Part shown: positions 22,553-24,163 of the stretch, piece after piece
Position numbering within the stretch: position 1 is the first letter of the stretch
Layout: the number at the start of each line of letters is the position of its first letter
Assembly: GCF_040214835.1 (NCBI RefSeq)
Contig: NZ_CP157874.1
Coordinates: 2,794,001-2,858,000, forward strand
From: Pseudomonas asiatica
GTDB lineage: Bacteria > Pseudomonadota > Gammaproteobacteria > Pseudomonadales > Pseudomonadaceae
Reading direction: 5' to 3'
Length of the DNA: 64,000 bases
Notes under the pieces: generated by a model
What the model was told of the DNA's origin: nothing
Seen by the model: only the letters and a program-made list of their open reading frames with translations
Database searches by the model: none
Made by a program: the position numbers and the translations under genes

Positions 22553-23608
22553 CTAGAGTTTTTGTGCCGCCTCGCGCAACAGGGTTTCGGTCGAAGCCCA
22601 GCCCAGGCAACCGTCGGTGATCGACACGCCGTATTTCAGCGCGCCCTTGCCCAGCGCCTGGCAGCCGTCGAACAGGTGCCCTTCGATCATCACGCCGACG
22701 ATCGAACGGTCGCCGGCCAGGCGCTGCTCCAGCACATCGTTGAAAACCGCCGGCTGGCGCGCCGGGTCCTTGCCGCTGTTGGCATGGCTGCAATCGACCA
22801 TGATCCGCGCCTGCAGCCCGGCCTTGGCCAGCGCCTGGCGGGCCATGGCGATGCTGTTGGCGTCAAAGTTCGGGCCCTTGTGGCCGCCGCGCAGCACCAG
22901 GTGGGTGTCCGGGTTGCCCAAGGTCTCGATGATGGCCGGGTAGCCCTGCGCATCCATGCCGAAGTGGCGGTGCGGGTGGGCGGCGCTGCGCATGGCGTCG
23001 CTGGCGATGGCGATGCCGCCGTCGGTGCCGTTCTTGAAGCCGACCGGCAGCTCCAGGCCACTGACCATTTCGCGGTGGATCTGCGACTCGGTGGTGCGCG
23101 CGCCAATCGCGGCCCAGGCCAGAAGGTCATCGAAGTAGCCGGCGGCCATTGGCTGCAGCAGTTCGGTGGCAACCGGCAGGCCGCGTTCGATCATGTTCAG
23201 CATCAGCCCGCGGGACAGGGCGATGCCGGCGTGCATGTCGTCGCTGCCATCGAGGTGCGGGTCGTAGGCAAGGCCTTTCCAGCCGACCGTGGTGCGGGGT
23301 TTTTCGATGTAGGCGCGCATCACCAGCAGCAGCTTGTCGTCGACTTCGCGGCTGAGGGCGGCCAGGCGGTCGGCGTATTCCAGGGCCGAGCGCGGGTCGT
23401 GGATCGAGCACGGGCCAACGATCACCAGCAGGCGCTGGTCGCGGCCTTCGAGGATGTCGCGGATGGCCTGGCGGTGGGCATGGACTTGCTGGGTAAGTTC
23501 GCTGGACAGCGGCATTTGCTGTTTGAGCAGGTGCGGGCTGGGCAGGCGCTGGCTGACGGTGTTGTTGGCCGCTTGCGGCTGGGTCAGGGCGAGGCTGGAA
23601 GCTTGCAT
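22553..23608 (-). CDS. aroF: 3-deoxy-7-phosphoheptulonate (DAHP) synthase, class I
   Basis: 351 residues; condenses phosphoenolpyruvate with erythrose 4-phosphate in the first step of aromatic amino-acid synthesis. Class I (AroF/G/H) signatures: LLVIVGPCSIHDPRSALEYA (about 60-80), EKPRTTVGWKGL (about 104-115), GARTTESQIHREM, LRGGHKGPNFD and MVDCSHANSGKD with the metal-binding cysteine and histidines. ATG 23608 gives MQASSLALTQ; the longer frame upstream runs through the leader region. The 5' side carries two aromatic-rich small ORFs and an intrinsic terminator, indicating attenuation control by aromatic amino-acid supply. Confidence 0.95.
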   Translation of the reverse strand: MQASSLALTQPQAANNTVSQRLPSPHLLKQQMPLSSELTQQVHAHRQAIRDILEGRDQRLLVIVGPCSIHDPRSALEYADRLAALSREVDDKLLLVMRAYIEKPRTTVGWKGLAYDPHLDGSDDMHAGIALSRGLMLNMIERGLPVATELLQPMAAGYFDDLLAWAAIGARTTESQIHREMVSGLELPVGFKNGTDGGIAIASDAMRSAAHPHRHFGMDAQGYPAIIETLGNPDTHLVLRGGHKGPNFDANSIAMARQALAKAGLQARIMVDCSHANSGKDPARQPAVFNDVLEQRLAGDRSIVGVMIEGHLFDGCQALGKGALKYGVSITDGCLGWASTETLLREAAQKL

Positions 23609-23657
23609 GGCGTTTTTTCCCTGGGCGGACGGCGGGTTCTGGCCCGCATGGTCGGCC

Positions 23658-23807
23658 CTATCGAGGTGTTCGACAGATCGTTGAATTCGTATTGGCTGCT
23701 GCATTGCCACCTGTGGAAGACCGAACGGAGGCGGCAGGCTGGCCCGAACGGGATTGGCTAAATCGCCAGGCGTAGGTGTTTGCGTAGTAATAAGTGGCGT
23801 AGTTCAT
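23658..23807 (-). CDS. aromatic-rich leader ORF 2 (49 codons) upstream of aroF
   Basis: Starts at ATG 23807 with GAGG eight bases upstream and ends at TAG 23658, 49 bases before the aroF ATG. The first 16 residues are MNYATYYYANTYAWRF: five... six aromatic residue types counted as six tyrosine positions less one, i.e. Tyr at 3, 6, 7, 8 and 12, Trp at 14 and Phe at 16. The remainder is serine/alanine-rich and unremarkable. It lies downstream of the terminator at 23856-23887, so it is made only from read-through transcripts or from a second promoter. Too short for family assignment; the composition suggests a regulatory peptide whose translation reports tyrosyl-tRNA supply (inference). Confidence 0.6.
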   Translation of the reverse strand: MNYATYYYANTYAWRFSQSRSGQPAASVRSSTGGNAAANTNSTICRTPR

Positions 23808-23855
23808 GAATCTGTCCTCAATGTGAATCGGTGTTGTTCAAAGGCCTGAAAAGCA

Positions 23856-23887
23856 AAACCCCCGGTCGGGGAGCCGACCGGGGGTTT
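23856..23887 (-). terminator. intrinsic terminator (attenuator) in the aroF leader
   Basis: Perfect 14-bp stem: AAACCCCCGGTCGG (23856-23869) pairs with CCGACCGGGGGTTT (23874-23887), loop of four. On the minus strand it is followed by TTTTGCTTTT. It sits 56 bases after the stop of leader ORF 1 and 248 bases before aroF, the position expected of a transcription attenuator. Confidence 0.9.
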
Positions 23888-23943
23888 GAGTATTCTCATG
23901 TTCGGCGGCCCCTCGAAGGTGGGCGCCGTGTGGGTATCGGCGC

Positions 23944-24063
23944 CTAGTGGCTAAACCAATACCCAAAGTAATAGCTGGCAGGTGCCACGCAACTGGCAAC
24001 GGCCAGCACAGGGCGCAGGCTGCGACCGGTGTGGTTGGCGTGGTTGCGGGTGTGTTTCGGCAT
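23944..24063 (-). CDS. aromatic-rich leader peptide 1 of aroF attenuator (39 residues)
   Basis: Minus-strand ORF from ATG 24063 to TAG 23944, with GGAG six bases before the start. The N-terminal part is basic and histidine-rich (MPKHTRNHANHTGR); the end is ASYYFGYWFSH, with six aromatic codons in seven just before the stop. The codons for Gly-Tyr-Trp (GGGTATTGG, 23956-23964) can pair over nine bases, one of them G-U, with CCGATACCC at 23932-23940, giving a 1:2-type leader hairpin. The strong terminator follows 56 bases downstream. This is the organisation of trp/phe-type attenuators: stalling at Tyr, Phe or Trp codons would free the downstream segment and prevent termination before aroF. Confidence 0.82.
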   Translation of the reverse strand: MPKHTRNHANHTGRSLRPVLAVASCVAPASYYFGYWFSH

Positions 24064-24163
24064 GTTGCTCTCCAGTGAATGAGCCCGAGCTTACTTCAGT
24101 TCGGCCGGGCCATTCAATGGATAAATGCTATGGGGGTGATCAATTGTTTTTGTACCGCACGGT

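Follow-up and report, generated by a model that had tools for sequence, protein, structure and literature searches.

A probable two-stage regulatory leader of aroF in Pseudomonas: a leader-peptide attenuator followed by a second leader reading frame

Introduction

Transcription attenuation by leader peptides is a textbook mechanism, in which a peptide with control codons, a terminator and an antiterminator together form a switch that is set by the position of the ribosome. In case of the his operon, the attenuator contains a chain of alternating helices that is longer than that of trp, and the leader RNA of the trp attenuator of Sinorhizobium meliloti also acts in trans. Here we describe the region upstream of aroF, the gene of a type I 3-deoxy-D-arabino-heptulosonate 7-phosphate (DAHP) synthase, in a 64,000-nucleotide (nt) stretch of the genome of Pseudomonas asiatica (contig NZ_CP157874.1, positions 2,794,001 to 2,858,000; this whole stretch is referred to as the window). 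The region probably is a two-stage regulatory leader, in which a transcription attenuator with the leader peptide LP1 is followed by a second leader open reading frame (ORF), LP2.

Several pieces of this picture have counterparts in the literature. Attenuation of trp and pheA is named in PMC5343134, which also states that in Pseudomonas the main target of the TyrR homologue PhhR is the degradation of aromatic compounds. Attenuators are listed for tyrA operons in PMC1173090, in which aroF designates another gene, and the leader peptide peTrpL of the S. meliloti trp attenuator is known to act in trans (PMC7298713). Both PMC2527527 and PMC2375449 refer to P15, an RNA that turns out to lie within the region described here, as a small RNA (sRNA) of P. 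aeruginosa, and the passage of the latter on this RNA says that it was not found in the screen of that study. Among the titles and beginnings of abstracts of the matches listed, with subscription papers lying outside this scope, none described an aroF attenuator of Pseudomonas, a function of P15, or LP2, and none accounted for what controls aroF in Pseudomonas.

Results

The components of a leader-peptide attenuator lie upstream of aroF

An earlier note, made from the sequence alone, had proposed that aroF transcription is attenuated by the supply of charged Tyr-, Phe- and Trp-tRNA, with one peptide reading all three amino acids. The components that it named are present: a 39-codon minus-strand ORF with a GGAG site, a block of six aromatic codons in seven (YYFGYWF) that sits two codons ahead of the stop, and, 56 bases after that stop and still before aroF, a perfect terminator stem with T-tract. 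After rechecking of the coordinates (Table 1), the order on the minus strand is a promoter-like pair, LP1, alternating G+C-rich segments, the intrinsic terminator, LP2 and aroF. LP2 lies in the same range of 23658-24063 that the note covered, and its text does not mention it. The proposal as a whole is supported by the conserved codons, the terminator, mutually exclusive and co-changing helices, a predicted switch and the promoter-like pair. These parts, their conservation, the alternative pairings and the predicted switch were established by computation.

For comparison, the best 80 of 587 stretches with AroF relatives in named genomes were used, which together with the window gives 81 loci. 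A filter for small, aromatic-rich ORFs detected two leaders in the large majority of them. A different filter recovered LP1 in 74 of the 81 loci (missed were L049, L058, L071, L075, L076, L077 and L078), and five of the missed loci (L058, L071, L075, L076 and L077) hold LP1-like sequence by eye. In the 74 loci, the last nine LP1 codons through the final aromatic one have an aromatic fraction of 0.673 in frame and of 0.069 and 0.195 out of frame, and that of the aroF genes themselves is 0.037. As the in-frame fraction is so far above these values, the aromatic block is not a product of chance.

The 55 Pseudomonas-type loci permit a closer look at LP1 in 53 (L046, for which the filter had picked a wrong start, and L049 were left out) and at LP2 in all 55. 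The YYFGY block of LP1 has a ratio of nonsynonymous to synonymous polymorphism (pN/pS) of 0.26, with Tyr and Phe interchanging, and alignment columns 0-29 of LP1 have ratios of 0.79-1.01. The Trp is kept in 53/53 loci, and the last Phe codon is TTT in 52/53, a codon that accounts for only 14 of the 331 Phe codons in aroF genes. As in LP2 (see below), this TTT is followed by an A, the next residue being Ser, Arg, Thr, Ile or Met. The body of the LP1 peptide is thus free to vary, and the aromatic codons are constrained. The note had regarded a lack of ORF and codon conservation in relatives as fatal to its reading; with LP1 and its aromatic codons being conserved, the reading survives this comparison. 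That LP1 and LP2 are small proteins that act after their synthesis is very improbable: the ORFs are indeed conserved and equipped with ribosome-binding sites, but it is codons and RNA that are conserved and not the peptide as a whole, as the pN/pS values of columns 0-29 illustrate, and neither LP1 nor LP2 has a Pfam or NCBIfam match.

An AroF search over 293 genomes of the order gave close relatives in three families as labelled by the search, f1 (Pseudomonadaceae), f33 (assigned to the Halomonadaceae from the named loci) and f40, and LP1 occurs in each of them. In a fourth family, f18, the leader upstream of the aroF relative is worded differently (FFWWFGYGFYFS), for example FFWWFGYGFYFSQ. 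The ORF filter recovered this leader in five of ten f18 upstream regions (L122, L123, L127, L129 and L131), four more show it by eye (L124, L125, L128 and L130), and a quick look at L126 revealed none. The f18 helices follow the same plan by eye (CCGGGC:GCCCGG, GGCAGCC:GGCTGCC and GGCTGCC:GGTAGCC).

Upstream of LP1, a promoter-like pair of hexamers can be seen by eye. Many of the 74 loci have a TTGAA- or TTGCC-like counterpart of the -35-like hexamer, and many Pseudomonas loci a GTAAGCT- or GTATGGT-like hexamer at similar spacing. Judging by this pair, our guess is that the transcript might start near 24081, about 20 nt upstream of LP1.

Mutually exclusive helices form a predicted relay

The stretch 24063-23840 folds better than 200/200 of its dinucleotide shuffles (z -5.65). 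Its competing structures are predicted to form a relay of mutually exclusive helices, x:y / y:3 / 3:4 / 4:5, and the antiterminator pairing that the earlier note could not resolve is that of segment 3 with the loop and arm of the terminator (segment 4). Partner-permutation tests were carried out with 45 hand-chosen leaders, 30 of Pseudomonas type and 15 of Halomonadaceae type, five of which were placed by hand. For x:y, 0/5000 permutations were as good as the native duplex, overall and in each group. For 3:4 the figures were 0/5000 overall, 5/5000 in the Pseudomonas type and 0/5000 in the Halomonadaceae type, and for y:3 0/5000 overall. As to covariation, 93.3% of the 3:4 cells are paired among the 15 leaders of Halomonadaceae type, a value not reached in any of 500 shuffles, and the covariation score likewise was matched by 0/500; one position is U-A in seven leaders and C-G in six. 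The Pseudomonas-type alignment of 3:4 has nearly invariant ends and a mismatched middle.

The nine-base pairing of the Gly-Tyr-Trp codons, which the note had emphasised, does exist as nine pairs of GGGTATTGG with CCGATACCC, one of them G-U. It does not belong to the shared core, as the Pseudomonas type has conserved it (45/5000 permutations as good) and the Halomonadaceae type has not (1800/5000), and the 1:2 pairing is thus peripheral to the switch.

Ribosome positions are predicted to select between the helices

Equilibrium folds with an assumed ribosome footprint of 12 nt were calculated for 43 of the 45 leaders, two having been dropped because their segments escaped the script. In snapshot folds, the RNA was cut just upstream of the terminator; paired values in the following refer to the Pseudomonas type and then to the Halomonadaceae type. 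With a ribosome at the LP1 stop, y:3 has values of 0.85 and 0.87, exceeding 0.5 in 42/43 leaders. With the ribosome stalled at Tyr or Trp before the last Phe, x:y is formed and y:3 is 0.20 and 0.18 for the two stalls in the Pseudomonas type, and 0.14 and 0.09 in the Halomonadaceae type. A stall four codons before the last Phe gives 0.29 and 0.15, and RNA that begins just before segment 1 and carries no ribosome gives 0.69 and 0.08. For the leader of the window, y:3 amounts to 0.87 at the stop, 0.29 at the Tyr and Trp stalls and 0.87 without ribosome. When segment 4 is included, 3:4 reaches 0.77 and 0.95 at the Tyr/Trp stalls, 0.72 and 0.94 at the last-Phe stall, and 0.64 and 0.83 without ribosome. 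These models support the idea that the ribosome position picks the structure, with switching by Tyr and Trp stalls.

LP2 contains a nearly invariant core that is read in one frame

The ten-base LP2 core TGGCGATTTA, which comprises a Trp codon, CGA for Arg, TTT for Phe and an A, is exactly retained in 75/81 loci of Pseudomonas and Halomonadaceae, and in 55/55 of the window and L002-L055. The six loci that lack the exact core are four of Salinicola, in which no LP2 was found, L061 with CGC instead of CGA, and L078, whose contig begins inside aroF. LP2 is furthermore absent from G115 (f33) and from L099, L104, L105 and L111 (f40), and degenerate in L102. L098, L107 and L112 retain CGATTTAGC without the preceding Trp, L109 carries CGATTTTGC, and the f18 genome L130 carries TGGCGATTTATC in a small ORF. 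Between families the AroF proteins are no more than about 60% alike, and the identity of these ten bases is a puzzle.

In the 75 loci, the 15 LP2 codons through the core Phe are 40.8% aromatic in frame (with Trp and Phe counted) versus 0.9% and 5.2% out of frame. Tyr positions are kept, with the codon varying between TAT and TAC. The core codons CGA and TTT are rare ones, CGA making up 3.3% of the Arg codons in aroF genes. An A follows the core TTT no matter which residue comes next (Ser, Thr, Asn or Ile), with an exception in L109. The core is under nucleotide-level constraint and read in one fixed frame. In L117, LP2 has a run of four alternating Gly-Tyr codon pairs ahead of the core Trp (GYGYGYGYGW).

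With script-chosen starts, nearly all Pseudomonas loci have the end of LP2 39-50 nt upstream of aroF, and in 8 Halomonadaceae loci the distance is at most 7 bases or LP2 overlaps with aroF; this proximity fits a coupling of both cistrons. The aroF frame itself is open 5' of its ATG up to a GTG at 23710 (23710-23608, minus strand), overlapping LP2, and automatic start calling could therefore make the annotated aroF too long.

Partners for the LP2 core were sought within the leader and in the genome, and both candidates were rejected. Within the leader (29 loci from three groups), the most conspicuous candidate was the segment 3 region with -9.3, -11.7 and -7.6 kcal/mol versus about -6 kcal/mol for shuffled motifs, but segment 3 varies among lineages while the core stays. 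In the genome, the reverse complement of a 12-base core occurs once outside aroF, where about 0.7 occurrences are expected, and no small aromatic ORF was seen at that place.

A possible pseudoknot follows the LP2 core

About 8 nt past the LP2 core, a possible H-type pseudoknot can form in many loci. In 29 chosen loci that are gapless over 70 bases behind the core, 93.4% of the pseudoknot cells are paired versus 22-54% in slid versions, and three pairs have changes on both sides. Shuffles were as high in 6/500 cases for the percentage paired, 6/500 for double-change pairs, 26/500 for covariation and 215/500 for pair types. The version slid by +3 comes close to the native covariation (0.109 versus 0.112 native) and exceeds the native double changes (10 cells versus 4), and support for a pseudoknot behind the core is therefore moderate. 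An unguided scan found it as the best structure in 10/15 Pseudomonas-type loci, the others being the window, L003, L010, L011 and L032. In the window, S1 contains two U-U mismatches, and another pairing was preferred. Of 14 Halomonadaceae-type and other loci, nearly all gave the pseudoknot or a close variant of it as the best structure, with L075 being different; L048 builds it with altered arms. In 13 aeruginosa/stutzeri-type loci, the scan gave no better pseudoknot than shuffles (mean 2.5, with failures counted as -99, versus 21.9).

The geometry of CGA-TTT-A, a spacer of about 8 nt and an H-type pseudoknot, as found in many loci, resembles what a programmed frameshift site would need. Such a function is highly improbable, as neither alternative frame is conserved: the length of the +1 frame ranges between 2 and 412 codons, most but not all loci have an immediate stop in the -1 frame, and aroF is not in a constant phase. 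Moreover, the core is kept in the 13 scanned aeruginosa/stutzeri-type loci in which the pseudoknot was not found.

Could LP2 instead be a classical translational attenuator, in which a stall on its Tyr, Trp or Phe codons frees the ribosome-binding site of aroF? LP2 is aromatic-rich and suitably placed between terminator and aroF, the LP2 core and the start region of aroF are paired with each other in the consensus fold of the aeruginosa/stutzeri type, and single loci show the expected effect, such as L006, where the cost of opening the aroF Shine-Dalgarno sequence decreases from 9.1 to 4.1-4.7 kcal/mol. In a simulation of 74 loci in three groups with a pseudoknot-free model, however, the mean cost for free versus LP2-stalled RNA was 5.7 versus 5.6-5.8 and 5.3 versus 5.4-5.5 kcal/mol and thus unchanged in two groups, and it was about 1 kcal/mol lower in the third (from 6.5 to 5.5-5.6 kcal/mol); core pairing at the aroF start also was barely better than that of shuffled motifs. 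We therefore regard translational attenuation of this kind as unlikely. For a ribosome at the LP2 stop, the cost was about 1 kcal/mol lower in two of the groups and higher in the third.

The catalogued RNA P15 coincides with the attenuator

P15 (RF00627) is the sole RNA family above cut-off in the window, and its match, the sole one in the genome, spans the last LP1 codons through the terminator and covers the whole model. P15 was found in 32/293 genomes of the order with 33 matches, in a search whose filters lose weak matches. By comparison of the P15 and AroF coordinates by hand, 32/33 matches lie 80-357 bases upstream of the best AroF match of the genome on the same strand; the odd one, in genome G268, is a terminator behind an unrelated ORF. 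Among the AroF matches listed, 37 genomes have an AroF of at least 59% identity, and 32 of them have P15. G209, the only sampled genome of the genus of the window that has no P15, has no close AroF either (best 53%). The model scored over cut-off in 9/20 related loci, among them 0/7 of Halomonadaceae type and 0/3 of f18, where the scanned loci L122, L127 and L130 gave no match. As observations on the family entry, the RF00627 model of Rfam 15 begins inside LP1 and covers neither its start codon nor the promoter-like pair, and it finds Halomonadaceae-type members weakly or not at all.

P15 is thus likely the product of the aroF attenuator, which would reassign it from the sRNAs. It could be argued that P15 is primarily a trans-acting sRNA gene for which the vicinity of aroF is secondary, and which might pair elsewhere, for example with the LP2 core of read-through mRNA. 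Rfam labels it as sRNA, PMC2375449 includes it in a list of sRNAs that Livny et al. had detected, pairing is feasible between GGGTCGCCA of segment 3 and TGGCGATTT of the LP2 core, and this duplex showed the largest gain over shuffled motifs in the partner scan. Nevertheless, 16/16 P15 matches above cut-off are located at aroF, the helices are those of an attenuator, and segment 3 changes by lineage with the LP2 core remaining constant, so there is no co-change; a primary trans function is quite improbable in our view, though P15 may act in trans in addition. A metabolite riboswitch, as proposed in PMC2527527 from synteny with a thiamine pyrophosphate (TPP) riboswitch, is scarcely credible, as no riboswitch family, TPP included, reached the gathering threshold in the window or the cut-off in 20 related loci, and the conserved parts are aromatic codons and attenuator helices.

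Table 1. Features of the aroF leader region, in coordinates of the window
Feature	Position	Strand	Description	Basis or remark
-35-like hexamer	24112..24117	-	TTGAAT	TTGAA-/TTGCC-like counterpart in many of 74 loci, by eye
-10-like hexamer	24088..24093	-	TAAGCT, 18 nt past the -35-like hexamer	by eye
LP1 Shine-Dalgarno	24070..24073	-	GGAG	sequence
LP1	23944..24063	-	leader peptide ORF, 39 codons plus stop, ends SYYFGYWFSH	ORF and conservation
P15 (Rfam RF00627), Pseudomonas sRNA	23859..23977	-	match of 113.3 bits	gathering threshold 70
Segment 1	23956..23964	-	GGGTATTGG, Gly-Tyr-Trp codons	pairs with 23940-23932 if ribosome-free; Pseudomonas type only
Segment x	23938..23944	-	GGCGCCG, at LP1 stop	pairs with y
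Segment 2	23932..23940	-	CCGATACCC, overlaps x	partner of segment 1
Segment y	23921..23928	-	CGGCGCCC	pairs with x (antitermination) or 3 (termination)
Segment 3	23903..23912	-	GGGGCCGCCG	pairs with y or 4
Intrinsic terminator	23856..23887	-	stem-loop of 14 base pairs, 4-nt loop	T-rich tail TTTTGCTTTT to 23849
Segment 4	23868..23876	-	CGGCTCCCC, terminator loop and arm	antiterminator partner of 3
LP2 Shine-Dalgarno	23815..23819	-	GAGGA	sequence
LP2	23658..23807	-	second leader ORF, 49 codons, MNYATYYYANTYAWRFS...	between terminator and aroF
LP2 core	23759..23768	-	TGGCGATTTA (Trp, CGA-Arg, TTT-Phe, A..)	conservation
Possible H-type pseudoknot	23706..23750	-	S1 23750-23744:23728-23722, S2 23735-23730:23711-23706	
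Element near LP2 stop	23666..23672	-	CGAACAC	CGA 54/55, ACA 54/55
aroF Shine-Dalgarno	23618..23622	-	AGGGA	sequence
aroF	22553..23608	-	type I DAHP synthase, 351 amino acids	NF009395, TIGR00034 and PF00793 matches

Discussion

Taken as a mechanism, RNA polymerase would start about 20 nt 5' of LP1. With ample charged Tyr-, Phe- and Trp-tRNA, the ribosome would reach the LP1 stop and cover segment x, so that y:3 could form and then the terminator, and a short RNA that ends at the terminator, i.e. the region that Rfam calls P15, would be released. If one of the charged tRNAs is scarce, the ribosome would halt within YYFGYWF, x:y and 3:4 would form, and the polymerase would continue into aroF. We infer both the transcript itself and the dependence of read-through on tRNA charging. 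In the Pseudomonas type, an untranslated leader is predicted to terminate as well, because 1:2 hides x.

Read-through transcripts would carry the Tyr-rich LP2, which most likely acts on translation. LP2 may place a ribosome pause at Trp-CGA-TTT-A, in many lineages ahead of the pseudoknot, and its end may lie near enough to the aroF start to matter there. LP2 might in this way be a second sensor, in which a codon-programmed pause about 8 nt before a pseudoknot gates aroF translation after LP1 has permitted transcription. We offer this as a tentative idea that is rather doubtful at present; we know of no earlier description of such a pause sensor. If it is true, one gene would be controlled twice, at two levels, by the charging of the same tRNAs.

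Several results weigh against the proposed two-stage leader. A strict consensus promoter scan upstream of LP1 reported no promoter. Within the groups, y:3 is no better than with permuted partners (1981/5000 in the Pseudomonas type and 795/5000 in the Halomonadaceae type); this helix differs between the two groups, with no measurable co-change inside either. As to 3:4, the pairs with double change in the Halomonadaceae type are not above shuffles (171/500), and the 30 Pseudomonas-type leaders show no covariation above shuffles (74.6% of the cells paired, 249/500). In the snapshot folds, y:3 remains high with a stall on the last Phe codon (0.57 and 0.62), and a clean response to a last-Phe stall alone is not predicted by the models. 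The window leader has y:3 values of 0.82 at this stall and of 0.80 four codons earlier, and for Halomonadaceae-type leaders without ribosome the low y:3 value predicts read-through. With segment 4 included and the ribosome at the stop, 3:4 still is 0.38 and 0.72, and 0.97 in the window; as 3:4 is high at equilibrium even then, termination must rest on y:3 forming first. In the group means of the simulated loci, an LP2 stall does not open the aroF Shine-Dalgarno sequence. Finally, five genomes with close AroF have no P15 (G064, G115, G138, G157 and G233). All of them belong to f33 and show LP1-like sequence, and the P15 model is thus weak in this family.

The genome contains a second type I DAHP synthase copy (G000:C1:1993742-1994749, 54% identical), at which no leader ORF passed the filter for small aromatic ORFs, and the two copies therefore probably are regulated differently. 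For aroF control in Pseudomonas, the attenuator offers a testable mechanism, and a catalogued RNA, P15, gains a likely cis function. There may also be a consequence for strain engineering. In P. taiwanensis, a feedback-resistant aroF-1 has been used in its native context (PMC6882275, the main text of which contains neither "leader" nor "attenuat"). If this aroF-1 has the leader described here, the attenuator would still repress when aromatic amino acids accumulate.

How does the locus compare with known systems? Like the enteric trp and pheA attenuators, the aroF leader has a peptide with control codons, an intrinsic terminator, an antiterminator and a switch by ribosome position. Unlike these, it targets the entry enzyme, a single peptide covers Tyr, Phe and Trp, the chain x:y, y:3, 3:4, 4:5 includes one additional alternative, and behind the terminator there is a second leader ORF. 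In its multi-stem chain it may resemble the his attenuator, which responds to another amino acid. The Rfam entry for P15, which the window matches over its whole model, describes an sRNA gene and a model without most of LP1 and all of LP2. The case of peTrpL illustrates that an attenuator product can work in trans, whereas for P15 and LP1 only a cis role is proposed here. Amino-acid attenuation itself is known, and it is the tandem arrangement of two leaders that is the unusual and new part of this system.

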